DNA of 24,069 nucleotides, from the IMG/VR virus record IMGVR_UViG_3300020450_002071, positions 1 through 24,069 of that record. One strand, given 5' to 3'. Below are positions 6,127-19,076 of this stretch, piece after piece. A program made the translations under genes and the position numbers. Source of the stretch: a virus. The notes beneath the pieces were generated by a model. It had not been told where the DNA came from. It saw only the letters and a program-made list of their open reading frames with translations, and did not search any database. How positions within the stretch are numbered: position 1 is the first letter of the stretch; every line of letters starts with the position of its first letter.

Positions 6127-6635
6127 ATATAACTGAAGAAAAACTTAAACAAATGATTATGGAAGAATTGGATAATATTCTTTTAGAAAAATGTTGGCCC
6201 GGATATGAAAAAAAAGGCATGAAAAAAATGTTTGGTAAGATGTATCCAAATTGTGTCAAGAAAAAGAAGAAAAAGAAAAAAAATGAAGAAGTAGAACTAG
6301 ATGAGGCTGACCCAAAGAAGGGTACCGGAAAAAAGCCTAAAGGTTCTGGTCGAAGATTATACACCGACGAGAACCCAAGTGATACCGTATCCGTTAAATT
6401 TTCAACTGTTCAGGATATTAAAGATACTCTTTCGAAAGAATCATTTAAATCAAAATCTCATAAACGACAGTCACAAATAATAAATTTGATTCATCAACGT
6501 GCCAGAGCAGCATATAAAAATGCTAAAGACCCTGAAGTCAAAGCACGATTGAAAAAGTCTTTTGATTATGCTAAACAAAGAAAAGAAGCATCAAAACGTA
6601 AAACACAAAGAATGAATAAATCAAAGAAAAAGTAA
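6123..6635 (+). CDS. Lys-rich protein with amphipathic helix and KCWxGY...PNCV motif
   Basis: ATG 6123 overlaps the previous stop (ATGA); an upstream in-frame ATG at 6099 would overlap 28 bases and adds no conserved residues. The 170-residue product opens with the helix MNITEEKLKQMIMEELDNIL, followed by EKCWPGYEKKGMKKMFGKMY and PNCV, the same Cys module as in the 2515 gene. Then come a run of eight lysines, an LDE|A candidate prohead-protease site (VELDEADPKK), a basic GTGKKPKGSGRR stretch, and a C-terminal helical basic domain (HKRQSQIINLIHQRARAAYK). The composition suggests DNA binding or packaging inside the capsid. No enzyme motif is visible. Confidence 0.78.
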   Translation: MNITEEKLKQMIMEELDNILLEKCWPGYEKKGMKKMFGKMYPNCVKKKKKKKKNEEVELDEADPKKGTGKKPKGSGRRLYTDENPSDTVSVKFSTVQDIKDTLSKESFKSKSHKRQSQIINLIHQRARAAYKNAKDPEVKARLKKSFDYAKQRKEASKRKTQRMNKSKKK

Positions 6636-7208
6636 ATGAATGTTCTTTCTATTGATATAGACTATGCTTATAGCCCTAGTATTTCAAACTATGATGAATT
6701 TATCGAAGGCGTTAGAATTTCTGATGAAGAACAATCATCAATTTTAAAAAACAACGCAATTTTTAAACCTGAGTGTAACCCAGAAAAACTAAATATATTA
6801 AAATCAGTTGTCAAAAATAATATTAAAAAGCATGCTCCTGTCATTATTATCGAAAACCATGATGAAATATTAAATTTTCTACCTGATAATATTCGAATGT
6901 CAATTTATAATTTTGATCATCATCATGATATTTATTATCCCGGCTGGCATTCGCTTGATAAATTAGACGAAGGAAATTGGGTTTACTTTTTAAAAGATAA
7001 AAATGTCACAGAGTACACTTGGTTTAGAAATAGTGATTCGGAAGATATGTTATTTGATTTACCTGAACTTAAATTTAATATTAAACAGGTGTATAATATT
7101 AGTAATACTTTGCCTATGTTTGATATAACGTTTTTTTGCATATCATCTAGGTGGTCTGGAATCACAGGTAAAGAAAATGTGATGGAGTTAGTAAAACTAA
7201 TATTATGA
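6636..7208 (+). CDS. UPF0489/arginase-like protein, putative metal-dependent hydrolase
   Basis: The 190-residue protein starts directly after the preceding stop. It has three acidic/His clusters: SIDIDYAYSP at residues 5-14, IIIENHDEIL near 72-81, and NFDHHHDIYYP near 91-101. The ENHDE...(N)FDHHHD pair resembles UPF0489 proteins, which have an arginase-like fold with a DxHxD-type metal site. True arginases and agmatinases have GGDHS and SxDxDxxDP in a set order; here the IDID segment comes first, so orthology to agmatinase cannot be claimed. It overlaps the deoxyhypusine-synthase-like gene by four bases, which makes a shared pathway plausible (inference). Confidence 0.62.
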   Translation: MNVLSIDIDYAYSPSISNYDEFIEGVRISDEEQSSILKNNAIFKPECNPEKLNILKSVVKNNIKKHAPVIIIENHDEILNFLPDNIRMSIYNFDHHHDIYYPGWHSLDKLDEGNWVYFLKDKNVTEYTWFRNSDSEDMLFDLPELKFNIKQVYNISNTLPMFDITFFCISSRWSGITGKENVMELVKLIL

Positions 7209-8191
7209 GTATAAAAAAATTTATTAAAGAAAATTATCTACATTTTAATGCTGGAGAGCTAAATCGAGCGGTAGAAACACTAGAAAAACAATTAAAGTTT
7301 AAAAATAAAATATTTTTAACTTTGTCGGGTGCTATGAGTACAGCCAGAATAGGAAGATTACTAGCCCCAGCTATTGAAAAAGGATTAATTGGCGCCATAT
7401 GTTGCACTGGGGCAAATTTAGAAGAAGATGTATTTAATGCTATCGAAGGCCACAGATATAAGCAAGTTCATTGGAGAAGTTTATCCGATGGAGATGAAGA
7501 ATTTCTTGTTAAGTCGGGCTGGAATCGTGTCACTGATACATGTATACCGGAAGATGTAATGCGTCATGTATGGAAAATCTTATTAGAATCTTGGAATTCA
7601 GAATTTAAACTCTCTCCCTACGAACACATGCGAAGAGCTTTGAACAAAATTGTAGAAAGCGAAACAGTGACTCCAAGGCTGAACGAATCTTGGGTATGGG
7701 CCGCACACAAAGCAGATATTCCCGTGTTTGTACCCGGATGGAGTGACAGCACTACTGGAAATATGTTTACAGCTAGCGTAAAAAAGGGAGAAGTAAAGCA
7801 CGGATATCATTCAGTAATAAGTGATGCAGAACAGTTTGAGTTGTTAGCAAACTGGTACGAAAATAATACTAGTAATGTATCTAATGGTCCAGCTTTTTTA
7901 CAAGTTGGAGGTGGAATTGCTGGCGATTGGCCGATTTGTGTTGTGCCATCGCTACGACAAGATGAGAATAAAGATGTGCCACATTGGGGCTACTTTTGTC
8001 AAATTGGTGATGCGCCGGCATCATATGGTGGATATTCTGGTGCACCACCGAATGAAAAAATTACATGGGATAAGATTTCTAGTCAAACGCCTAGATTTGC
8101 AATACAATCTGATGCTACAATAGTATTACCGCTTATACTGTCCTACTTATTAGAAACCAAGAATAACAACTTAAATGAAACTCCTACTTGA
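7205..8191 (+). CDS. Deoxyhypusine synthase-like enzyme
   Basis: The 328-residue protein matches the deoxyhypusine synthase family along its length. It has LTLSGAMSTARIGRLLAP (38-55), CCTGANLEEDVF (66-78), DIPVFVPGWSDSTTGNM (171-187), FLQVGGGIAGDWPIC (231-245), the NAD/spermidine-site region GDAPASYGGYSGAPPNEK (268-285), and TWDK with Lys290 where the eukaryotic enzyme has its catalytic lysine (SWGK). Eukaryotic and archaeal enzymes transfer aminobutyl from spermidine to eIF5A; bacteria lack eIF5A, and bacterial relatives act on polyamines such as putrescine, giving homospermidine. The product here is therefore open. The N-terminus MSIKKFIKEN resembles a T4-type head-targeting peptide. It is coupled by ATGA to the arginase-like gene upstream. 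Confidence 0.9.
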   Translation: MSIKKFIKENYLHFNAGELNRAVETLEKQLKFKNKIFLTLSGAMSTARIGRLLAPAIEKGLIGAICCTGANLEEDVFNAIEGHRYKQVHWRSLSDGDEEFLVKSGWNRVTDTCIPEDVMRHVWKILLESWNSEFKLSPYEHMRRALNKIVESETVTPRLNESWVWAAHKADIPVFVPGWSDSTTGNMFTASVKKGEVKHGYHSVISDAEQFELLANWYENNTSNVSNGPAFLQVGGGIAGDWPICVVPSLRQDENKDVPHWGYFCQIGDAPASYGGYSGAPPNEKITWDKISSQTPRFAIQSDATIVLPLILSYLLETKNNNLNETPT

Positions 8192-8558
8192 AAATTGGCG
8201 ACAGTATGTAACAGAAGATTGGCGTGATACATCATGGGAAAACGATGATAAAAAAGTTACAATCGGAGATGTGCTTGATTATTTAGAAGATGCGGTTGTT
8301 GATATTGATGTTTTAGAACTCTCGCAACAATTACCACCTTTGCCAACACAGGGAGCCGAAAGAGTTGCTGCAGCAAATTTAGAGTTTCCAATCATCGTTG
8401 TCAAGAGCGGTGGTCAATACCGATATGTTTTGGATGGGAACCATCGTCTTCAAAAAGCGATTAATCAAAAGGCTGAGAGCATAAAAGCAAAAATCTTGGA
8501 TTTAGATAACCCAGAGACACCTGATGTGTTTAAGAAAATGTTTGGAGGCGCAGAATGA
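8175..8558 (+). CDS. ParB/sulfiredoxin-like domain protein
   Basis: The 127-residue product contains YRYVLDGNHRLQKAIN (residues 82-97); DGNHR is the signature loop of the ParB/sulfiredoxin fold, used for nucleotide binding or hydrolysis or as a nuclease. Upstream strands (LEFPIIVVKSGG) fit that fold. Activity cannot be assigned. The first residues MKLLLENWRQYV are nearly identical to those of the next gene although the remaining domains are unrelated, which points to a shared targeting peptide. The gene overlaps the previous one by 17 bases and the next one by four. Confidence 0.8.
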   Translation: MKLLLENWRQYVTEDWRDTSWENDDKKVTIGDVLDYLEDAVVDIDVLELSQQLPPLPTQGAERVAAANLEFPIIVVKSGGQYRYVLDGNHRLQKAINQKAESIKAKILDLDNPETPDVFKKMFGGAE

Positions 8559-9163
8559 AACTTTTACTTGAAAATTGGAAAAATTATGTTTTATTAGAAA
8601 ATATTGAAACGGCAACTCGATTATCAATTTTTGATTTCGATGAAACGATTGCTTTTTCTGAGGGATATATTATTGTTATTAATAAACAAACTGGAGAACA
8701 ATTTAAAATTTCTTCTCAAGAAGAATACGATAAGCTTAAAAATGATGGAGGGTACGAGTTTGATTTTTCTCCACTTGATCAAGTTAACAATGCTGTAGAA
8801 AATCCAAATATTACTTCTATACTGAGGGATAGATTGTCAGACCCCAACACTCAAGTTATGGTTTTGACGGCAAGGGCTCCCATTTCTATAGATGATATTC
8901 ACCGAGTTTTACAAACTTTCGACAAACCAATCGAAACTAGAGATATAATAATGATTGGAAATGAAGGTGGCAATAAAGGTGAATACATTAGAGATGTCAT
9001 TCTTTCAAAATATGATAATATTAAAGAAATAGAGTTTTTTGATGATTCAGACAACAATATTGTTGACGTGAAAGCAGTAAAAAATGAAACATCTGAAAAC
9101 GGCACCATAGAAAAGTTTGACATTTATAAAGTGTCCGAAGGAATTCCTAAATTAGAAAATTGA
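8555..9163 (+). CDS. HAD-family phosphatase/hydrolase
   Basis: The 202-residue protein has HAD motif I as SIFDFDETIAF (D27, D29), motif II in VMVLTARAP, and the acidic motif IV in EFFDDSDNN. The C1 cap region is small. The family removes phosphate from small molecules or nucleic-acid 3' ends (as in the phosphatase half of phage polynucleotide kinase); no kinase domain is fused here. The N-terminus MKLLLENWKNYVLLE copies that of the ParB-like neighbour. The start overlaps the preceding stop as ATGA. Confidence 0.85.
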   Translation: MKLLLENWKNYVLLENIETATRLSIFDFDETIAFSEGYIIVINKQTGEQFKISSQEEYDKLKNDGGYEFDFSPLDQVNNAVENPNITSILRDRLSDPNTQVMVLTARAPISIDDIHRVLQTFDKPIETRDIIMIGNEGGNKGEYIRDVILSKYDNIKEIEFFDDSDNNIVDVKAVKNETSENGTIEKFDIYKVSEGIPKLEN

Positions 9164-9193
9164 ATAAACTAGTTACATTGTGGAGGATGAGGC

Positions 9194-9514
9194 ATGCCTG
9201 ATAACAATGGATGGGATACGTATTCCAAATTAGTTTTACAACAATTAGAAACTTTGTCAGCTGGTATTGAAGCTTTGCGTACTGAATTGCAAGACGTAAA
9301 GGGTCAGTTAACAGAATTAAAAGCTAAAGAGGATAAAGTTCAAGAATTAAAAGTTTGGAAAGATAAGATGGATGATGTTGCATCTCCGCCACAAATAAAA
9401 TCTGCTTTGGAGGATATTGAAAACCTTAAAATTTACAAAACAAAAGCGATGACTGCTTTTATGGTTGTGCAAGGTATTATGGCCATGGCTTTAGCTTGGT
9501 CTAAATTAGGTTGA
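9194..9514 (+). CDS. Coiled-coil protein with C-terminal membrane segment
   Basis: The 106-residue product has a long heptad-like coiled coil (residues 12-60) and a C-terminal hydrophobic segment AMTAFMVVQGIMAMALAW ending at a single Lys. This is the layout of XhlA/hemolysin-type phage membrane proteins and of several marine phage proteins of unknown role. It could assist lysis or anchor another phage product in the inner membrane. A strong ribosome site (GGAGG) lies upstream, and a 30-base gap separates it from the HAD gene, so it may start a new translational unit. Confidence 0.78.
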   Translation: MPDNNGWDTYSKLVLQQLETLSAGIEALRTELQDVKGQLTELKAKEDKVQELKVWKDKMDDVASPPQIKSALEDIENLKIYKTKAMTAFMVVQGIMAMALAWSKLG

Positions 9515-9523
9515 GGTTTTCAT

Positions 9524-9820
9524 ATGGCAAAGAAAAAATATAGCACTGATAGAATAAAGCAAATTATAAGACAAATAAATGGTAAGTTCGAAGATGAAGA
9601 AGGTGCTACAAATGAACTTATAACCTGTGCTATGATTAATGGGCAAGGTGATATATGGTGTTGGTCTCCAGAAAAAAGAGAATTTATTAAAGTGAATCGT
9701 GGCACTAAAGTTTATATTTTAGATTTTCAAAAAGATGAAAAAAACAGATATATGGTTTATGATGGATTTAATATTTTTTCAATTGAAGACAAGGAAATAA
9801 CTGAAATAGGATTTAATTAA
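9524..9820 (+). CDS. Small hypothetical protein
   Basis: A 98-residue protein with TGAGG upstream of ATG 9524. It begins with a basic helix (KKKYSTDRIKQIIRQINGKF) and continues with beta-rich sequence containing IWCWSPEKREFI and GTKVYILDF. No family is recognised and there is no membrane span. The stop shares a base with the start of the next small gene (TAATG). Confidence 0.65.
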   Translation: MAKKKYSTDRIKQIIRQINGKFEDEEGATNELITCAMINGQGDIWCWSPEKREFIKVNRGTKVYILDFQKDEKNRYMVYDGFNIFSIEDKEITEIGFN

Positions 9821-9954
9821 TGCTTTTTACATTTAGTAAATTTTGGCAAGTGATTCTTGCCAATACTGCTGCTTTATTATTTTTGAATCTAGCAGGTTTT
9901 GAAATAACTTTAGTTTTGCTACTTTGCACTATGCTTGTAATCTTAGCTGATTAA
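9820..9954 (+). CDS. Small membrane protein, 44 residues
   Basis: ATG 9820 overlaps the preceding stop as TAATG. The product, MLFTFSKFWQVILANTAALL followed by FLNLAGFEITLVLLLCTMLV and ILAD, is almost wholly hydrophobic and could form one long or two short membrane segments. The stop-start overlap and the absence of any other reading frame in this gap support it as a real gene. A holin-like or membrane-modulating role is possible but unproven. It follows the coiled-coil/membrane protein with one small gene between. Confidence 0.6.
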   Translation: MLFTFSKFWQVILANTAALLFLNLAGFEITLVLLLCTMLVILAD

Positions 9955-9975
9955 TAATAAATTACTATTTATTTG

Positions 9976-10248
9976 ATGCTAATGAAAGAAAAAATCAAGT
10001 TTGGTGAACTTAAAGCCAAAGAACTAAAAATTGGTGATATTGTATCTTGGTCCAAATGGAATGTAGAAACTGAAAATTGGGACGAGTTTATGGGTGTCTT
10101 ATTAGATACTCGCAATGAACTTGTAGGCAATCGTCTTGTTTCTGTTTCTAAAGTTATGCCATTAAATAATAACATGACTTCTGGCGAATTAGAGTTTTTT
10201 ACTCTTTCGCTTAAATTGGTTTCACATTCTGATGACAAAAATAAATAA
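9976..10248 (+). CDS. Small SH3-like/KOW-like beta-barrel protein (predicted)
   Basis: The start is uncertain: ATG 9976 or ATG 9982, with no good ribosome site before either. The product of about 90 residues contains KELKIGDIVSWSKWNVE, then FMGVLLDTRN and RLVSVSKVMPL, the strand pattern of small SH3-like barrels in which a conserved 'xxGDIVxW' opens the domain. The same layout appears in the proteins at 17587 and 17843. Function unknown. Confidence 0.6.
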   Translation: MLMKEKIKFGELKAKELKIGDIVSWSKWNVETENWDEFMGVLLDTRNELVGNRLVSVSKVMPLNNNMTSGELEFFTLSLKLVSHSDDKNK

Positions 10249-10288
10249 AGAACAAATAATTAACTACTTATCATGAGGCAATCACAAT

Positions 10289-11296
10289 ATGCTTGAAATT
10301 ATAAAACCATTAGTTTCAGAATTTTTACCTTTTGCACAAAAAAGAATGGGTTTTAAAAAGCCACCTAGAATTTTTTTGAAAAATGATTCAGCGAACGCGA
10401 GTAACCCATTAGGTAAAACTGCATACTATGATCCAACAGAAAAATCTGTTACACTTTATGTTACTAATAGACACCCAAAAGACGTGATGCGGTCCCTATC
10501 ACATGAATTAGTACATCATACTCAAAATTGTAATGGTGAGTTTGACAAGCCTCATTCTATGGGTGATGGATACGCTCAAAATGATGCGCATTTAAGAGAA
10601 ATGGAAAGACAAGCATATGAAATAGGAAATTTATGCTTTAGAGATTGGGAAGACGGGATAAAAAATACTACTTATTATGAATCTTTAAACAAAGGAGCGA
10701 ATTTAAAAATGTCTACTAAAGATTGGAAAAACGGAGAACTTACCCAGCTTTTGTCCGAAGCTTGGGGGTTTAAATTTAATACTCTTCAAGAATTTGAAGA
10801 ATTTAATGAAGCTGGAGAGGTGCAAACCGAAGGTGACGAAGAAATTGAAGAAGTTGCCGGTGTATCACCTAGAAAGCAAGATAGAAGGTCACCAAAGCTT
10901 CAAAAGGACCGCCGTGCTGACTCTGACAGAGATGATGACGATAAGGTTGATGAAGGCGATGATCATGACGATGAAGAAAAGATGGAAGAAGGCGGTGCAG
11001 CTGCACGTACTGGAAATGAAGACAAAGATGTTGGAAGAGATAGAATGTCTGCAGACCGCGTACACGAAGGCGAAGAAGAAGATTTAGACGAAAGCGTTGA
11101 TGAAGATCTTGAAGAAGCAGCCAAGCCTGATTACATTGATCTCGACAAGGATGGCGATAAAGAAGAGTCTATGAAAAAGGCTGCAGCCGATGCAAAGAAG
11201 AAAAAGAATGAAAATCGCATTAGTGAAGCTAAGGTTCGTGAAATTCTTCAAAAAGCAATTCAACTAGCAAAAACCAGAAAAGAATCTAAGGAATAA
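10289..11296 (+). CDS. Putative zinc metalloprotease with long acidic C-terminal region
   Basis: In this 335-residue protein, the first 150 residues form a peptidase-like domain with SLSHELVHHTQN (H72, E73, H76) and a downstream helix HLREMERQAYEIGN carrying the likely third glutamate ligand. Residues 170-335 are acidic, charged and repetitive (EEIEEVAG, DDDDKVDEGDD, EEEDLDESV) with a basic end. Three candidate gp21-type sites are visible: LLSE|AWG, LEE|AAKPD and ISE|AKVR. An acidic tail with protease sites is typical of prohead core or scaffold material, so this may be a core protein, the maturation protease itself, or a packaged protease. GAGG lies 11 bases before the start. Confidence 0.78.
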   Translation: MLEIIKPLVSEFLPFAQKRMGFKKPPRIFLKNDSANASNPLGKTAYYDPTEKSVTLYVTNRHPKDVMRSLSHELVHHTQNCNGEFDKPHSMGDGYAQNDAHLREMERQAYEIGNLCFRDWEDGIKNTTYYESLNKGANLKMSTKDWKNGELTQLLSEAWGFKFNTLQEFEEFNEAGEVQTEGDEEIEEVAGVSPRKQDRRSPKLQKDRRADSDRDDDDKVDEGDDHDDEEKMEEGGAAARTGNEDKDVGRDRMSADRVHEGEEEDLDESVDEDLEEAAKPDYIDLDKDGDKEESMKKAAADAKKKKNENRISEAKVREILQKAIQLAKTRKESKE

Positions 11297-11301
11297 TACA
11301 A

Positions 11302-11562
11302 ATGTCCGACGCACTCAATAGACAGTGGCGGGAATTTGTTATTGAAGAAGCCTTGGCTGACAAGGACATCTTTAGCTATATTCAGGCTCTGGAAGAATAC
11401 ATTAAATATTCAAAGCCTAGAACTTTGACTGAAAAACGCAGATTGTCTGTAGCCAAACAAAATCTTAAGGAAGTTAAGCGTTTTGCTAGAAGAATGGAAA
11501 ATCAAATTGGAATCCTCCAAGAAAAACTTAATATTTTAGAAGAGTCGATAGGAGACAAGTAA
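11302..11562 (+). CDS. Coiled-coil protein, probable head-associated
   Basis: The 86-residue protein is predicted to be almost all helix, with a heptad-rich C-terminal half (MENQIGILQEKLNILEESIG). The N-terminus ALNRQWREFVIEEALAD contains W-x-x-F-V-x-E, matching the shared N-terminal peptide of other genes here, and IEE|A, a possible prohead-protease site. AAGGA precedes the ATG. The stop overlaps the next start (TAATG), tying it to the ligase-like fusion protein. Role unknown. Confidence 0.7.
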   Translation: MSDALNRQWREFVIEEALADKDIFSYIQALEEYIKYSKPRTLTEKRRLSVAKQNLKEVKRFARRMENQIGILQEKLNILEESIGDK

Positions 11563-13532
11563 TGGGTGGTGCAGCTGGACACATGGATCACCCATTTGAT
11601 TTGGGTTCTGTTAATACTGGTTCTGATTTACTAGATTTCTTTTTAAAAGCTGAGAAATTTTTAGAAAAGAAGGGCGCCGGTTCAGTCAAAATAGATGGCG
11701 TTAATGTATCTTTCAAAGTTGTAGAAATTGAAGGCGTACATCAATTTGCTGTTGACCGTGGTTCCATGAAAGAAATAGATATAAGTGGAATTACTGTGGG
11801 TCGAGTAGATCAGCGTTTTCCCGAAGGTCACGGTATGCGGCCAGCAATACGAACATTGCTAATGATTCTTAATAAATCTATATCAGATGTAAAAAAAGAA
11901 TTAGTTGAATTAGGAATGTGGGATGATCCTTCTATGTTTTTAAATACTGAATACGTTGCAGGCACAACTAATGTTACTAAGTATGATGAAAATTTTCTAG
12001 CCATTCATGGACTAAATCAATTTTATGAAAGAACTGCTAAATCAGGTGCAAGTAAAGGAAATACGAGACCGGGCGCTGAAAGACCACCGGACGTAAAGGC
12101 CCCAAGTAAAGAAATATCATATAATCCAAAAGTCATGCAAAATTTAGTTAAAAAACTAAATGAAGTGGCAACTAAATATGGATTTCAAGTTTATGGTTCA
12201 GTGCCTACTGAGAAAGCTAACGACATAGATTATTCCGAAACATTAAAAAGGCCTTTCACAGTAAAAATTTCTGATGACAGAGAAATAACAAAATCATTAG
12301 AGGACTGGCTTTCCGAAGCAAATAATCCACGCTACAAGATTATAAAACTTAAGAACGGTAAAACTACTCACCCACTGCATAAAGAGCTTTATAAGGCAAT
12401 ATTGGACGCTAAAACACCAATAGTAGACTTAATTGAAGATAATGATGCCGAAGCTGCGATATATGGTGCCATATTTATGCATGCTACTAGATTACTAGGA
12501 AATGACATATTAAATGGTTTAACTAGCCCAATGGGTGATGTTATAAACCATGAAGGGGTTGTTTTAAGGGACGACAAGTTATTTGGTACCAAGCCGGTCA
12601 AAATTACAGGCGAATTCATTCTTGGAGGTATGGGTTCGGCATTTCAAGCTGACACCTCTATAAACGAAGAAGACGAAGACGAGGATCCAGTAGTTGACAG
12701 TGATTTTTCCAATGAAGGCAAAACGTATGCAATTGTACCCGGAGCTTTTAAGCCGCCACACATGGGTCATCTAAAGATGGTGCAACAATATATTCAAAAA
12801 CCTAATGTAGATGAAGTAATTGTTTTAATTTCATCTCCAATGAGAAATCAAAGAAAACTAGAAGACGGTACAATAATTACCCCTGAACACTCTGCCAAAG
12901 CTTGGAAGCTTATGTTAGATGAAGCTGGATTAGGGTCGCCAGAAGTTAGAGTTGTAAAGTCAAAACAGCCCTCTCCAATATCTGCTACATATGATTTTAT
13001 AGGAAATGATGGTCCCTTAGAAAAAGGAGATAGCATAATTCTAGGAGCTAGTGATAAACCTGATGATAATGGAGTACCTGATTGGCACCGGTGGCTCTCT
13101 GTAGATCCCACTAAGCATGTTAAACCCGGGGCTAAACTTTTAGATATTCAGAAAAATGCCGTTAAAGCATTCGACAGGGCTAATGGTGAGCCTTTTCGTG
13201 CACGCGACATGAGAAAACTAATTACAATGGCACGAACATCTGGTAAAGCAGTGGAAACACTTGAAGAATTTATTGGAGAAGACAACGTATTTGATCTGTT
13301 GGCCATATTTGGTATGGGTCCACAAAAAAGAGTACAAGAGATGTCTTCTATGGGCGGTGGCAGTGTCCAAGGGGCGCCGGCACTTGGGGGAGGTCCATTC
13401 CGTAGAAAAGACGTCGAGAAAGAAAATGAGAAGCAGAAAAAAGCCAGCAAACTTAAAAAAGAAAATATTGATTTAAGTATTGTTGAAGAAGTTATGGGAC
13501 TATTTACTGAAAGAGGAATATTTGTAAAATGA
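11562..13532 (+). CDS. Ligase-like nucleotidyltransferase fused to HxGH cytidylyltransferase-like domain
   Basis: This is a 656-residue protein. Residues 1-360 have the motif order of ATP-dependent DNA/RNA ligases: motif I KIDG (K43), MFLNTEYVAG (motif III-like, E130), EGVVLRD (motif IV, 331-337) and KPVKITG (motif V, 344-350). Residues 388-560 form a nucleotidylyltransferase domain with VPGAFKPPHMGH (HxGH at 400-403), SSPMRNQRK, and FRARDMR in the place of the ISSTxxR motif. An acidic linker joins them, and LSE|A at 250-253 is a possible protease site. The Gly/Met-rich tail (MSSMGGGSVQGAPALGGG) looks flexible. Marine phages carry related proteins of unknown function. Lys43 could be adenylated; the partner substrate is unknown. 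AGGAGA precedes the start. Confidence 0.82.
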   Translation: MGGAAGHMDHPFDLGSVNTGSDLLDFFLKAEKFLEKKGAGSVKIDGVNVSFKVVEIEGVHQFAVDRGSMKEIDISGITVGRVDQRFPEGHGMRPAIRTLLMILNKSISDVKKELVELGMWDDPSMFLNTEYVAGTTNVTKYDENFLAIHGLNQFYERTAKSGASKGNTRPGAERPPDVKAPSKEISYNPKVMQNLVKKLNEVATKYGFQVYGSVPTEKANDIDYSETLKRPFTVKISDDREITKSLEDWLSEANNPRYKIIKLKNGKTTHPLHKELYKAILDAKTPIVDLIEDNDAEAAIYGAIFMHATRLLGNDILNGLTSPMGDVINHEGVVLRDDKLFGTKPVKITGEFILGGMGSAFQADTSINEEDEDEDPVVDSDFSNEGKTYAIVPGAFKPPHMGHLKMVQQYIQKPNVDEVIVLISSPMRNQRKLEDGTIITPEHSAKAWKLMLDEAGLGSPEVRVVKSKQPSPISATYDFIGNDGPLEKGDSIILGASDKPDDNGVPDWHRWLSVDPTKHVKPGAKLLDIQKNAVKAFDRANGEPFRARDMRKLITMARTSGKAVETLEEFIGEDNVFDLLAIFGMGPQKRVQEMSSMGGGSVQGAPALGGGPFRRKDVEKENEKQKKASKLKKENIDLSIVEEVMGLFTERGIFVK

Positions 13533-14284
13533 ATTCTGATCAAGAGAAAATCCTTAAAGAAAGTATAAAACAAGCAATTCAGGTTGTCAAGAAGAAAAAG
13601 AGTCTGCAAGAAAATAAATTGCGTTCGATTATACGACAGTTTTTAAAGGTTGAACTAAAAAATTTGCAAGAGGCTGCAACACCCGATAATGATCCGGCGC
13701 CTCATAAGTCAACTGGAATTAATGTGTTAGAAGATTTGTTAAAGAAAATAGTTCCAATTCTGGAAGACGATTACAAGCTTTTGACAACTAACGATGACCA
13801 AAGAAAATCATTTAGGTCACACATCATCAATGCCGTAATTGGCTCACTAACTCCTGTTGAAGCCAACAACGATGCTCCAAATATCGATGAAGATATTGAA
13901 GAAGACATTAATATTGATGTTGGTCAAGGTGATGATGATAAATTTATCGATATTAGAACTGATGCTGAAAAATCAGCCGATGAAGAAGATCCTAAAGACG
14001 ATCCTGTGAGTTCTTTTGGAATTGAAGGTGAAGATGAGACCGGTAGAAATATGGCGTATTCTAGCTATAAGAAAATTGAAAGTTCTGTAGTAGATGCATA
14101 TGATTTGCTTTCTAACACTGAGGATCAAGAAATATTTTATGAGTATCTGATAGCTAATTTGAAATTGTATTTTGATAAATTCGAAGGCGAACTAGCTACA
14201 TCACCAAGCGAGCCTACTAACAAAGCCTACGATTCTGCAGCAAAAGATCAAGGCACTGAAGATACTATAGACTTTGAAATTTAA
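13529..14284 (+). CDS. Acidic phage protein, probable head/core protein
   Basis: The 251-residue protein starts with basic amphipathic helices (KILKESIKQAIQVVKKKK, then LRSIIRQFLKVELKNL) followed by LQE|A, a candidate gp21 site, and a conserved-looking block GINVLEDLLKKIVPILEDDY. The middle is highly acidic (EDIEEDINIDVGQGDDDKF) and the end is helical with a Ser/Thr-rich tail. This layout resembles scaffold or core proteins of T4-type phages, but no homology to a named one is visible. ATG overlaps the previous stop (ATGA) and the stop overlaps the next start (TAATG). Confidence 0.72.
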   Translation: MNSDQEKILKESIKQAIQVVKKKKSLQENKLRSIIRQFLKVELKNLQEAATPDNDPAPHKSTGINVLEDLLKKIVPILEDDYKLLTTNDDQRKSFRSHIINAVIGSLTPVEANNDAPNIDEDIEEDINIDVGQGDDDKFIDIRTDAEKSADEEDPKDDPVSSFGIEGEDETGRNMAYSSYKKIESSVVDAYDLLSNTEDQEIFYEYLIANLKLYFDKFEGELATSPSEPTNKAYDSAAKDQGTEDTIDFEI

Positions 14285-14604
14285 TGACTACTAAAAATAA
14301 AAGTATTGCTAGTAAATTAATTAATGATGGTATTGCTAGTGAAGATTTGTTAGTATTAGTTAATAGTATATCATTAGAAGATATTATAGCACTTAAATTA
14401 GAGTTGTCAAGTAAAATTTTACAAAATAGATTTTACGGATTTGACATATGGCGAAATACGAATTATATAGTTAAAGACGCTTTATTGAAATTTGCAATTG
14501 CTAACACTAACAGTAAAAAAGATGCTGCTAGATTCTTAAATTTAAATTATTCAGCTTTTTCAAGGCTAATTAAAAAGTTTGAGGTTGACAAGTATTACGA
14601 ATGA
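14284..14604 (+). CDS. Small helix-turn-helix protein (Fis-type)
   Basis: In the 106-residue product, residues 64-101 (KDALLKFAIANTNSKKDAAR...LIKKFEV) fit the C-terminal helix-turn-helix of Fis-family proteins, where a helix, a turn around LNLNYSAF and a basic recognition helix follow each other. The N-terminal half is helical and could be a dimerisation part. It sits at the boundary between the head-type block and the promoter-rich block, so it might regulate that switch (inference). Its last codons contain the -35 box of the next promoter. Confidence 0.75.
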   Translation: MTTKNKSIASKLINDGIASEDLLVLVNSISLEDIIALKLELSSKILQNRFYGFDIWRNTNYIVKDALLKFAIANTNSKKDAARFLNLNYSAFSRLIKKFEVDKYYE

Positions 14605-14613
14605 TGTTACAAT
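14585..14613 (+). promoter_or_regulatory. Sigma70-like promoter
   Basis: TTGACA (14585-14590), a 17-base spacer and TACAAT (14608-14613), five of six in the -10 box. The -35 box lies inside the end of the HTH gene. The predicted start near 14620 gives a leader of about 140 bases before the thioredoxin lipoprotein. A second -10-like element with extended TG (TGATATAAT, 14621-14629) lies just downstream. Confidence 0.75.
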
Positions 14614-14626
14614 TAATTAATGATAT

Positions 14627-14744
14627 AATATCCGGCTATACTACTAAAGGTAGCTCCATGTCTATCAAGAGCTTCCAAAACAGGGGGTTTGAAAAAAATA
14701 AACTGAGATTAGCTGTGGTGAGCAAGAGATCCACACCGGGTATT
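14627..14744 (+). other. Structured leader or small RNA with 9-bp closing stem
   Basis: AATATCCGG (14627-14635) pairs with CCGGGTATT (14736-14744) through nine base pairs, one of them G-U, and a run of T follows. Inside are at least two hairpins: AGCTC/GAGCT around 14652-14672 (extended by GG/CC across a T/T mismatch) and TGTGG/CCACA around 14715-14735. A weaker GTTT/AAAC pairing lies between. The predicted promoter start falls just before the closing stem. It could be a cis-regulatory leader, a small RNA, or chance structure around the tiny ORF that overlaps it. I recognise no known riboswitch class. Confidence 0.45.
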
Positions 14745-14750
14745 TTTTAA
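14658..14750 (+). CDS. Possible 30-residue leader peptide/small protein
   Basis: ATG 14658 opens a frame of 30 residues (MSIKSFQNRGFEKNKLRLAV, then VSKRSTPGIF) ending in TAA at 14748-14750. AAAGG lies seven bases upstream. The stop is 11 bases before the lipoprotein ATG, and the ribosome site of that gene (AGGAG) begins right at the stop, so translation of the peptide could control the next gene. The peptide is basic and has no membrane segment. It overlaps the RNA structure, and either reading may be the correct one. Confidence 0.45.
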   Translation: MSIKSFQNRGFEKNKLRLAVVSKRSTPGIF

Positions 14751-14761
14751 AGGAGTGCAAA

Positions 14762-15358
14762 ATGTTAAAATTTATTATACCAATGTTAATAGCTTCTTGT
14801 GGACCAGCAGAACTAAAATCAAATTTAAAAAGTGCTGACACAAATAATAATATTGTAGATACAGAGCCGCCAGAGCTTGGAGTTAATGAGCGTGATGATT
14901 GTGACCAAAAAGCTTTGGGTTCAAGTGTTTGTAATTTTGTTCTTTTAGATCAAAATGGAGACTATTGGAATCTCTATGATCATCACGGTAAAGTTATAAT
15001 TTTAGATTTTTCTACAGCATGGTGTTATCCATGTCAAATGGCTGCAGCACATACCCAGTCAGTTCAAGATGATTATGCATCGGACGTTATATTTGTCACT
15101 CTTTTAATTCAAGGTGAAACAGGCTTGCCAGCCACTGCAGAAGATGTAGCTACTTGGGTAGAATCTCATGGCATTACTACGGCGCCAGTACTACAAGCTT
15201 CCAGAGAGTATATAATGGATTCTGCCGGTATTACTGGCTATCTTGTTGGTGGATATCCAACATATGTTTATCTAGATCGCGATTTAACAATTGCATATGC
15301 ACATGTAGGTTATTCTGAAGAACACATGAAAAACATTTTAGATGGCTTGATTCAATAA
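14762..15358 (+). CDS. TlpA-like thioredoxin-fold lipoprotein
   Basis: The 198-residue protein starts with a short lipoprotein signal (MLKFIIPMLIASC; lipobox IASC, acylated Cys13) followed by a flexible linker and a TlpA/AhpC-type thioredoxin domain. The active site is W87-C88-Y89-P90-C91, the cis-proline is in GGYPTYVYLD (P166), and the central strand is VIILDFSTAWC. It should sit in the outer or inner membrane facing the periplasm and reduce or rearrange disulfides. Two more cysteines (C47, C57) precede the domain. A lipoprotein thioredoxin is unusual in a phage and probably came from a host. AAAGGAG precedes the ATG. The stop overlaps the next start (TAATG). Confidence 0.85.
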   Translation: MLKFIIPMLIASCGPAELKSNLKSADTNNNIVDTEPPELGVNERDDCDQKALGSSVCNFVLLDQNGDYWNLYDHHGKVIILDFSTAWCYPCQMAAAHTQSVQDDYASDVIFVTLLIQGETGLPATAEDVATWVESHGITTAPVLQASREYIMDSAGITGYLVGGYPTYVYLDRDLTIAYAHVGYSEEHMKNILDGLIQ

Positions 15359-15559
15359 TGTGGAAAGTATATAAATGGGATGGTCACTATATTATGGGTG
15401 ATTTAGTAAGCAAGCATTCATCTGAAACTGCAGCATTAAAAGCGGCTAAGAAAAAAATTGATTTCACTCACAAAGAAAAAATTAAAAGAAACAAAGAAGT
15501 AATAATTTGGTTAGATGACTTGAAACATGAACCAATCGGTGTTATAATTAAAAAGATTC

Positions 15560-15567
<8 letters not shown>
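15358..15567 (+). CDS. Small hypothetical protein upstream of and overlapping tmRNA 5' end
   Basis: A 69-residue basic protein (MWKVYKWDGHYIMGDLVSKH...) with a strand-helix-strand pattern. ATG overlaps the lipoprotein stop as TAATG. Its last codons (CGG GGG TGA) are also the first bases of the tmRNA acceptor stem, an eight-base overlap. No family is recognised. Confidence 0.62.
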
Positions 15568-15901
<334 letters not shown>

Positions 15902-15909
15902 ATAAAATT

Positions 15910-16857
15910 ATGAAAAATAAAACTAAAATTATAAAACAAAAATGGGCCTACAATGTTACTACGTCGCCTATTGATCCGCTTGATGAACTCAGCCTCTGGT
16001 GCAGAAGGAATGTAAAAAGAAAAGAAAACAAACATTTTCCTCGGTCTGAAATTAATGTTCTTAAAAGTGTATTAACTTGTTTGTGCGGGAATCACCCATG
16101 GACCGATGATCCGTTTTTTGCGAAAAAAGACTATGATGATGAAACCGGCAGAAACACGGCTATAACAATCGCAGGCCCTCCAAGAACTGGCAGTACACTA
16201 GTAACATTAGCAATTAATGAAATTTTGTTGTCAGTGGATGATAAGGAACACAAAGTTTTCAAAACACATGAATTGTTTGATAGTCGATGCCCGTTACTTT
16301 TTGACCAGAAAACTTTATATTGCATAAGAAATCCTTATGATAGTTTTTATTCGTATCTCAGATATTTAGAGATTGATTATAAAGATGTGCTTGATAAGTC
16401 TGGACAAATAAAAAAAGAAATAATTAAGAATATTTTTGAAGATGTTCATTTAGCTGCGGCCTATATCACTTTACAAAAAGACCCATTCACAAAAAATATA
16501 TTTATGAAATATAATAATAATTCTATTATTCTAATACCATATGAAAATTACTACAATAATGAAATGCAATTAATTGATGACATTTCTAAATATTTCAATG
16601 CTGATTTGATAGATGAACAAAAGAAATTAATTTATTCTAAAATATGCAACAAAAGCATCAAAAAGATATCTGATAATTTAGATGAGGGAACAAAAGATAA
16701 AAAATTAGGATATATTCACAAAAATCATATAGGTGATAAAAAAGGTGCACCCGGCCAAGGAAGTCAATTACCAGATTTTATTAAAGAACAAATATTTCAA
16801 AACTTAGGTGGTATTTATCAAGTTTTCGGATATGATTTAAAAAATTACAATAAATAA
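15910..16857 (+). CDS. Sulfotransferase-family protein
   Basis: I start this 315-residue protein at ATG 15910, nine bases after the tmRNA, because the longer frame would begin inside the tmRNA T arm. TIAGPPRTGSTLV (85-98) is the 5'-phosphosulfate-binding loop of PAPS-dependent sulfotransferases, FKTHELF (117-123) holds the KTH segment seen near their active site, and RNPYDSFYSYLRY (140-152) is the 3'-phosphate motif. It would transfer sulfate from PAPS to a sugar, lipid or protein acceptor that the sequence does not reveal. Possible uses are change of host surface glycans or of phage structures. No ribosome site is clear upstream. Confidence 0.85.
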   Translation: MKNKTKIIKQKWAYNVTTSPIDPLDELSLWCRRNVKRKENKHFPRSEINVLKSVLTCLCGNHPWTDDPFFAKKDYDDETGRNTAITIAGPPRTGSTLVTLAINEILLSVDDKEHKVFKTHELFDSRCPLLFDQKTLYCIRNPYDSFYSYLRYLEIDYKDVLDKSGQIKKEIIKNIFEDVHLAAAYITLQKDPFTKNIFMKYNNNSIILIPYENYYNNEMQLIDDISKYFNADLIDEQKKLIYSKICNKSIKKISDNLDEGTKDKKLGYIHKNHIGDKKGAPGQGSQLPDFIKEQIFQNLGGIYQVFGYDLKNYNK

Positions 16858-16914
16858 TTTGAAATAGGTTATACTTAACTAAACAAAATATTTCTATTTA
16901 CAACAGGAGAAAAA

Positions 16915-17367
16915 ATGGAAAACGAAGAAAAAGATATAGTAACTGTGCAAGAAGGCCAATTTGTAAAAGTTCACTATGTCGGTACATTGGATGACGGCAC
17001 CGAATTTGATAATTCGTATGTTCGTCAAGAAACATTGGATTTTCAAGTAGGAAATCCACAATTATTGGCAGCATTTAATAATGCATTGGTAGGAATGGAA
17101 GCGGGCGAAAAGAAGAATTTTCAAGTGTCTCCCGGTGAAGCTTATGGGGAACATGACCCAGAAGCTACAGTTACTGTGGGTCGTGATGCATTTCCAGAAA
17201 ATTTTGAGTTTAATCCCGGTGACACTGTTGAGGGAACAACAGCTGAAGGCACACCAGTTTTAGCTAAAATTATTTCAGCTATTGAAAACGATGTTACTCT
17301 TGATTTGAATCACCCACTAGCGGGAGAAAATTTGAATTTTGAAGTCGAATTGGTTGAGATTCAATAA
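16915..17367 (+). CDS. FKBP-type peptidyl-prolyl isomerase, SlyD-like
   Basis: The 150-residue protein has the FKBP start (KVHYVGTLDDGTEFDNSY), an insert-in-flap region (residues about 66-115), and the SlyD-type ending LDLNHPLAGENLNFEVELVE. It catalyses cis-trans isomerisation of prolyl bonds and acts as a chaperone in the cytoplasm; the His/Cys-rich metal tail of E. coli SlyD is absent. In a phage it could help fold virion proteins. A good ribosome site (CAGGAG) precedes the ATG. A weak TATACT box at 16870-16875 could be a promoter, but no clear -35 is present. The stop overlaps the next start (TAATG). Confidence 0.93.
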   Translation: MENEEKDIVTVQEGQFVKVHYVGTLDDGTEFDNSYVRQETLDFQVGNPQLLAAFNNALVGMEAGEKKNFQVSPGEAYGEHDPEATVTVGRDAFPENFEFNPGDTVEGTTAEGTPVLAKIISAIENDVTLDLNHPLAGENLNFEVELVEIQ

Positions 17368-18037: not shown

Positions 18038-18065
18038 CCTAAGTATTAATAGGGTGGCGATTGAT

Positions 18066-19076
18066 ATGATTAAAAAGTTTTTGCTTTTGATGTCGGCTTT
18101 TGCGCTTAGCTGTAGTCAAGATTATGCCATAGTAAATCCAGAAAAAGAAGTAATTGTAATTACAGAAACAATCACTGAAACTGAAACAGTTGAAGTAGAA
18201 ATCGAAGTTCCAGTTTATGTGGAAGTCGAAGTTCCAGTTAACGAGGGAATAATTTGGGTTGACTCATTTACTCAACATATGTCAATCGATGGTATTGATA
18301 TTTTATGGGTAATCGATCGTTCTGGTTCAATGAGTAGATATAATGGAGAATTATTAGCAGGAGTAGAAGCCATGCTTAATGCTCTCCCCGTATCTGATTG
18401 GAGATTGGTAATGATAAGTGCAGATCCTACAAAATCAGTTTTAAGTAATGAGTTTCCTCTAGTACCGGGTGACGATATTGATGACGCTGCAGCCATGTTG
18501 GGTACTATGGTGGGCGCCCACCCTTGGGAAGAGGGTTTCAATTCTGTATATGAATATATTAATCATAACCCATATTCTACAACTTGGATGAGACCTGATG
18601 CTGGACTGTTGGTTGTTTTTGTATCTGACGAGGATGAGCAAAGTGATTGGGAATACCCAGCACCTTCGGATTTTTTAAGTTGGTATACTGGACTCAGAAT
18701 GGGTTCTGTTTTTATGGCTAGCGTAATCAATTTGGATGAGACTGAATCTATTTGTACTCATTCGGTTAACCCAAGAGATGTTGGAAATAGATATATAGAA
18801 GCAACAAATACACTTGGTGGAATTATTGTAGATATCTGTTCCAATGATTGGGCGCCCGGAGTTACAGATGCCACCAATTCAATAGAGCCTTATGAAAACT
18901 TAACATTAACACATAAGGCCGAGCCTGATTCAATTAGAGTTTTTATTGATGGTATACTCAACAGTGATTGGCACTATCAAGAATCAGATAATACAGTTTA
19001 TTTTACTATTATTCCATCTGCTGGTCAACTAGTTGAAGTTGGATATAGATACATTGAAATTGATACCGGCCCATAA
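18066..19076 (+). CDS. von Willebrand factor A lipoprotein
   Basis: From ATG 18066 (GGGTGG upstream) the product is 336 residues; GTG 18054 is an in-frame alternative. The N-terminus MIKKFLLLMSAFALSC is a lipoprotein signal with lipobox ALSC (Cys16). Then come a Glu/Val/Thr-rich repeat (residues 28-60), a VWA domain with the metal-binding DxSxS motif as DRSGS (84-88), a later VVFVSDEDEQSDW, and a C-terminal beta-rich part (LTLTHKAEPDSIRVFIDG). VWA domains bind protein partners through a metal ion. A surface-anchored VWA protein on an infected cell, or one acquired from a host, is unusual for a phage. The function may be adhesion or modification of the host envelope. Confidence 0.83.
   Translation: MIKKFLLLMSAFALSCSQDYAIVNPEKEVIVITETITETETVEVEIEVPVYVEVEVPVNEGIIWVDSFTQHMSIDGIDILWVIDRSGSMSRYNGELLAGVEAMLNALPVSDWRLVMISADPTKSVLSNEFPLVPGDDIDDAAAMLGTMVGAHPWEEGFNSVYEYINHNPYSTTWMRPDAGLLVVFVSDEDEQSDWEYPAPSDFLSWYTGLRMGSVFMASVINLDETESICTHSVNPRDVGNRYIEATNTLGGIIVDICSNDWAPGVTDATNSIEPYENLTLTHKAEPDSIRVFIDGILNSDWHYQESDNTVYFTIIPSAGQLVEVGYRYIEIDTGP
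18198..18245 (+). repeat. 24-base tandem duplication in the VWA lipoprotein
   Basis: Bases 18198-18221 and 18222-18245 are near copies, both containing TCGAAGTTCCAGTT, and encode EIEVPVYV and EVEVPVNE. The repeat lies in the linker between the lipid anchor and the VWA domain and could vary in copy number between related genomes. Confidence 0.85.

Follow-up and report, generated by a model that had tools for sequence, protein, structure and literature searches.

The window, by which we mean the whole 24,069-base IMG/VR virus record analysed here, from a marine phage, carries at 7205-8191 a real and intact gene of the deoxyhypusine synthase (DHS) superfamily. Judged from its sequence, this gene is translationally coupled to the one directly upstream, and the pair probably constitutes a phage polyamine module: an NAD-dependent 4-aminobutyl transferase would make homospermidine, and the upstream metallohydrolase would supply the putrescine. 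The two genes and their main motifs are the following.

7205-8191, plus strand: DHS-family (SpeY-like) enzyme of 328 aa, from PF01916, the AlphaFold2 (AF2) model and invariant active-site residues
6636-7208, plus strand: predicted ureohydrolase-type metallohydrolase (agmatinase/arginase-like) of 190 aa, from the AF2 model, structural matches and conserved ligands
7205-7208, plus strand: ATGA start-stop overlap between the upstream gene and the enzyme gene, read from the sequence
6654-6662, plus strand: DID (D7, D9) in SIDIDYAYSP, which fits the ureohydrolase S-x-D-x-D-x-x-x-P motif, here N-terminal
6915-6929, plus strand: DHHHD (D94-D98), which fits the ureohydrolase D-x-H-x-D metal motif
7907-7927, plus strand: GGGIAGD, the NAD-site glycine motif and D241, which replaces human His288, from alignments
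8072-8074, plus strand: codon (AAG) of K290, which corresponds to the catalytic human Lys329, in the motif NEKITWDK, from alignments

The initial annotation had described a phage DHS-like enzyme with an intact catalytic lysine, and this description stands: the reading frame is real, the profile match runs the full length, the fold is that of DHS and the lysine of TWDK is K290. Pfam DS (PF01916) covers residues 13-314 (E 5.1e-42, 144.6 bits against a curated cut-off of 27), which places the product in the DHS superfamily; no PHROG family matched it. A single-chain AF2 model, built from 14 relatives, reached a mean pLDDT of 86.4 and a pTM of 0.87, with residues 271-282 poorly placed. It aligns over the full length with solved DHS structures (Z 25.8 for the Brugia enzyme, 25.4 for the human one), and the best alignment spans 287 residues at an rmsd of 3.1 and 20% identity.

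A copy of the enzyme at 76% identity occurs on nine IMG/VR contigs, in nearly the same gene order. The gene is under purifying selection: dN/dS is 0.028 for the sister pair L008/L003 (dN 0.0040, dS 0.141) and 0.05-0.07 between the window and its sisters, where dS is saturated. A chance match or a pseudogene is ruled out by the full-length match, the strong purifying selection and the nine sister contigs. Contamination with host DNA was likewise rejected for this lineage, since a sister contig of 97 kb encodes terminase, portal, endolysin and PhoH; it also has a primase. A scan for promoters and terminators around the enzyme gene gave nothing clear above shuffled sequences.

Several features of the rest of the window deserve a record. 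A tmRNA gene at 15560-15900, with the tag ANNNLHFDEAARLAA, suggests a bacterial host. Two consecutive ORFs, at 8175-8221 and 8555-8600, open with one and the same peptide, MKLLLENW. Sister phages differ here in how many ORFs they have and of which kind, perhaps pointing to a leader-peptide cassette. A short Cys-Trp lysine-rich motif is common to two ORFs at 2515-2660 and 6150-6280 (CWDGYKQAGLKKKGNRMVPNCV and CWPGYEKKGMKKMFGKMYPNCV), and several PHROGs match it too. Finally, inspection by eye suggests two lipoprotein-like ORFs at 14762-15358 and 18054-19076, one thioredoxin/TlpA-like and one with a stretch resembling VWA.

Residue equivalences were drawn from a profile alignment with human DHS and from a 132-row alignment, in which the row of the window includes upstream codons and its residue numbers run 4 higher. 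K290, E284, W288, D303 and D181 correspond to human Lys329, Glu323, Trp327, Asp342 and Asp238, while T68, E73/E74 and G236/G237 correspond to Thr131, Glu136/137 and Gly283/284. All of them are invariant in the other viral sequences (41/41) and in the cellular ones (80/80); which of them touch NAD we assume partly by analogy with human DHS. We also looked for a degenerate active site, against which the initial annotation had cautioned, and found none, the catalytic lysine and the NAD-site residues being unchanged in all 41 other phage sequences compared. The enzyme looks catalytically competent and belongs to a distinct sub-branch.

The claim that the family motifs are preserved has to be narrowed to the form that they take in a bacterial DHS-like branch. 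Three positions depart from true DHS: Asp241 stands in place of His288, and Asn186 and Tyr277 in place of the spermidine-binding Asp243 and Asp316. In human DHS, His288 is a proton carrier in the active site (PMC7226451). The same D/N/Y combination at human positions 288/243/316 is found in 80/80 cellular relatives, which assigns the phage enzyme to a bacterial "SpeY-like" branch and excludes true DHS. The human and archaeal enzymes thus share with it the fold and the equivalents of Lys329, Thr131, Glu137, Asp238, Glu323, Trp327 and Asp342, but differ in these three positions and in having an eIF5A partner, of which we found none here. The D/N/Y sub-branch is common in bacteria and some archaea; in the literature searched, we found no tested activity for any of its enzymes.

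Among the closest known systems is SpeY of the Anabaena type (PRK00770/NF001980): it belongs to the DHS family, keeps the catalytic lysine and the equivalents of Glu323 and Trp327, and stands in a polyamine gene context. All NCBIfam equivalog models score the phage enzyme far below their cut-offs, the best being PRK00805 (117 bits) and PRK00770, "homospermidine biosynthesis" (115 bits); the SpeY model, the best or second-best match, gives 115.4 bits against a cut-off of 450. The nearest cellular relatives also fall below the equivalog cut-offs. The two nevertheless occupy separate branches of the tree, the phage enzyme is phage-borne, and cyanobacterial SpeY has N/M/L where the phage enzyme has D/N/Y. 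Most likely the enzyme works like SpeY, but since the substrate-anchoring residues differ from those of both human DHS and cyanobacterial SpeY, its product may differ.

The upstream protein has no Pfam match, and no arginase (PF00491) was found in the window or in the 97-kb sister. The closest structural matches of its AF2 model (pLDDT 78.5) were OspR, a peptide arginase (Z 6.8), the agmatinase of E. coli (5.6) and guanidinopropionase (5.5), values that are moderate and within the range about which the comparison tool warns. The sequence fits the six-ligand pattern of ureohydrolases (H, DxHxD, DxD), and D7, D9, H75, D94, H96 and D98 are kept in 70-71 of 71 phage homologs. Whereas ureohydrolases have the DxD motif near the C terminus, here it is N-terminal. 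An hhalign comparison with arginases gave a weak local match (E 0.013); a circular permutation is unproven, as rotated and unrotated arginases gave the same match. We infer that the product is an agmatinase-like metallohydrolase. The 4-base overlap with the enzyme gene is kept in eight sisters (L002-L009).

The family of this upstream gene (L229-L308) is large in phages, with 71 distinct members that carry the six ureohydrolase-type ligands and are without a Pfam match, and most of its members are not near polyamine genes. In two loci (L097:5818-6384, L098:767-1958), a relative follows a gene resembling 2-oxoglutarate oxygenases (by eye in L098) and precedes a glycosyltransferase-looking gene.

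A profile search with the upstream protein returned 117 relatives; we kept the best 80 loci. A DHS-like gene adjoins the relative in 8 of these 80. Among the 80, the nearest homologs outside the lineage are L237 (52%; a 138-kb contig with terminase) and L238 (44%), and both have SpeD (PF02675, E 7e-19 and 2e-19) and SpeE (PF01564, E 2e-34 and 8e-41) directly downstream. One upstream gene thus has two alternative partners, the spermidine pair or the DHS-like enzyme. Either partner requires putrescine, the compound that an agmatinase would supply. It is through these speD-speE partners that the window's own link to polyamines runs; around most other members of the family among the best 80, the flanks examined contain neither SpeD nor SpeE nor a DHS-like gene. 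The phage speD-speE pair occupies the same slot, but represents an AdoMet-based route to spermidine, whereas a DHS-type enzyme needs NAD only.

Cellular and other phage relatives of the enzyme also cluster with genes for polyamine precursors, as expected of SpeY in the broad sense. The nearest bacterial enzyme (L017) has an ornithine/arginine decarboxylase directly upstream (PF02784, E 8e-35), and those of marine group II (MGII) archaea (L021, L022) have SpeD there. This is close to the speDA-speB-speY clusters reported from marine group II, in which speY is termed a homospermidine gene (PMC10407285). Among 82 immediate neighbours of cellular homologs, ornithine/arginine decarboxylase is tied for first place with 4 occurrences, followed by arginase (2), AdoMet decarboxylase (AdoMet_dc; 2) and carbon-nitrogen hydrolase (1). 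SpeD occurs in 9/27 phage records bearing the DHS-like enzyme, within a few kb of its gene in six loci (L141, L154, L157, L158, L160, L167); in the reverse control, a search with that SpeD gave 23 phage SpeD loci, and the 6 with a DHS-like gene in the flank are those just named.

SpeE and ornithine/arginine decarboxylase were each found in 0/29 enzyme-bearing phage records, absences that carry little weight because most of the records are fragments. SpeD without SpeE acts elsewhere as an arginine or ornithine decarboxylase (PMC10407285). The window and the 97-kb sister, both incomplete, showed no decarboxylase, so that putrescine or agmatine would need to be supplied by the host. Arginase-family genes lie near the enzyme gene in L136 and L151; the phage origin of both contigs is not firm, and we therefore leave them out of the case.

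An intact enzyme placed like a polyamine-making gene probably makes homospermidine during infection. The analysis shows the fold, the family, the intact lysine and NAD-site residues, the purifying selection and the gene order; from these we infer NAD use, substrates and product, the part played by the upstream gene and a benefit to the phage. By analogy with the DHS mechanism (PMC7226451) and from the conserved residues, the enzyme would oxidise putrescine with NAD, hold the butyl imine on Lys290 and pass the butyl group to a second putrescine or another amine; reduction by NADH would then yield a product that the gene context suggests to be homospermidine. The predicted upstream metallohydrolase would give putrescine from agmatine, and the two genes together would fill the place that speD-speE hold in related phages.

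A predicted ureohydrolase beside a DHS homolog also brings to mind CdmS, the caldomycin synthase of Thermus thermophilus. This DHS homolog couples two agmatines, free amines, with a ureohydrolase-family partner and lacks Asp243 and Asp316 (PMC10981699). The window enzyme, with Asn and Tyr at these places and a ureohydrolase-like partner, might similarly be a polyamine synthase of other specificity that couples agmatine or mixed amines, the upstream hydrolase then stripping the guanidino groups. We regard this as unlikely: the CdmS-type model NF002699 ranks with the weaker of the equivalog models, at 91.9 bits against a cut-off of 500, and the relatives adjoin ornithine/arginine decarboxylase or SpeD rather than following a single fixed agmatine route. 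The replacement residues differ from those of CdmS.

The initial annotation had left two activities open, synthesis of a polyamine such as homospermidine or aminobutylation of a lysine in a protein; the gene context in phages and cells argues for the first. For the second, the enzyme would transfer 4-aminobutyl onto a lysine of a phage or host protein, or onto ornithine produced by the upstream, peptide-arginase-like enzyme. True DHS modifies a protein, the upstream model comes closest in structure to the peptide arginase OspR, and several other phages carry the DHS gene within a block of virion genes. However, eIF5A (PF01287) was found in 0/29 enzyme-bearing phage records, which are mostly incomplete, the same upstream gene precedes speD-speE, makers of a free polyamine, and the genomes of MGII and Micrarchaeota encode a canonical DHS separately from the SpeY-like copy. 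The lysine-rich neighbours invoked as candidate substrates fall into phage families of wide occurrence (phrog_727, 9737 and others), one of them being similar to a protein from a Pelagibacter phage; they make a weak case as substrates, being common in phages while a collection of 50,697 phage records is without this enzyme. Protein modification therefore seems quite improbable to us.

DHS cleaves spermidine in vitro without an acceptor protein (PMC7226451), and some phages encode spermidine-sequestering enzymes (PMC9992855), so that the enzyme could act in reverse or wastefully on host polyamines, breaking spermidine down and depleting it, and thereby disturb the host or block competing phages. 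The gene context is biosynthetic and no oxidase or acetyltransferase partner was noticed among the genes looked over, which makes such a role very improbable. Homospermidine synthesis remains our preferred reading. Several phages need spermidine (PMC9992855).

By profile search, the enzyme family is present at 55 IMG/VR loci in several kinds of phage. No match was obtained in the 50,697 annotated phage records, searched with two divergent phage versions (the window protein and a podophage-like one), and a search of BFVD by fold turned up nothing among its viral proteins at E <= 0.001. Phylogenetically, the window lineage groups with L136 and a Gemmatimonadetes enzyme, apart from other phage copies; marine alphaproteobacterial and MGII archaeal enzymes join it less firmly. 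A single clade of all viral copies was rejected (AU p 0.019, for a group chosen after the first tree), which makes at least two transfers likely, with the caution that long branches urge.

Some phage copies are placed quite differently from that of the window. In podophage-like contigs (L011-L016, L152, L161, L163, L164), the enzyme gene stands between conserved genes of unassigned family and one for a 1000-1400-aa protein, which in L014 (8939-12436) has a DarB-like stretch. It follows tail proteins in L170, lies between virion structural genes in L155 and is the second gene after the terminase in L162. In L140 it adjoins a gene for a 2677-aa methylase/helicase protein (8917-16947), and in L170 a polyvalent protein (11429-16945) is encoded shortly downstream. 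In several phage lineages (L014, L140, L170), then, the gene next or almost next downstream of the enzyme gene encodes a large DarB-like or polyvalent protein.

The virion-block copies have N-terminal extensions, many reading M-L/M/I-P-R-E/D. Tags of the MLPRE/MMPRD type occur at L011:7953, L014:7941, L016:7950, L152:7953, L156:7929 and L174:6994 and are absent from the other phage copies; in a scan of about 3,800 viral ORFs, an N-terminal tag of the MLPRE type was found essentially only in podophage-like copies of the enzyme. Position and extension together raise the possibility that the enzyme is packaged or injected. More speculatively, unrelated phages may use the DHS-branch enzyme as an AdoMet-free, NAD-only replacement of the spermidine pathway, with the MLPRE-tagged virion-block copies of podophage-like phages perhaps packaged and injected, or aminobutylating a virion protein; we advance this wider scheme tentatively.

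Phage-borne polyamine genes are of a known kind; what appears to be new is that phages carry this branch of the enzyme family and that it is exchanged with speD-speE. Viral homospermidine synthase (HSS), found in phage phiRSL1 and chlorovirus PBCV-1, makes the product that we propose here, but belongs to a different, non-homologous enzyme family (PMC9992855). In a systematic survey of viral polyamine genes from 2023, SpeY and DHS homologs were undetected in viruses and phages (PMC9992855), and no other report of them was found in the literature searched. This gap is filled by a gene that is conserved and under selection in several lineages of uncultured phages and that directs attention to a sub-branch of the DHS family for which our literature search turned up no assayed member. 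Polyamines neutralise the packaged DNA of T4. The enzyme would give phages an NAD-only route to a triamine, in the operon slot where their relatives hold speD-speE, and makes it possible to test why phages need triamines.
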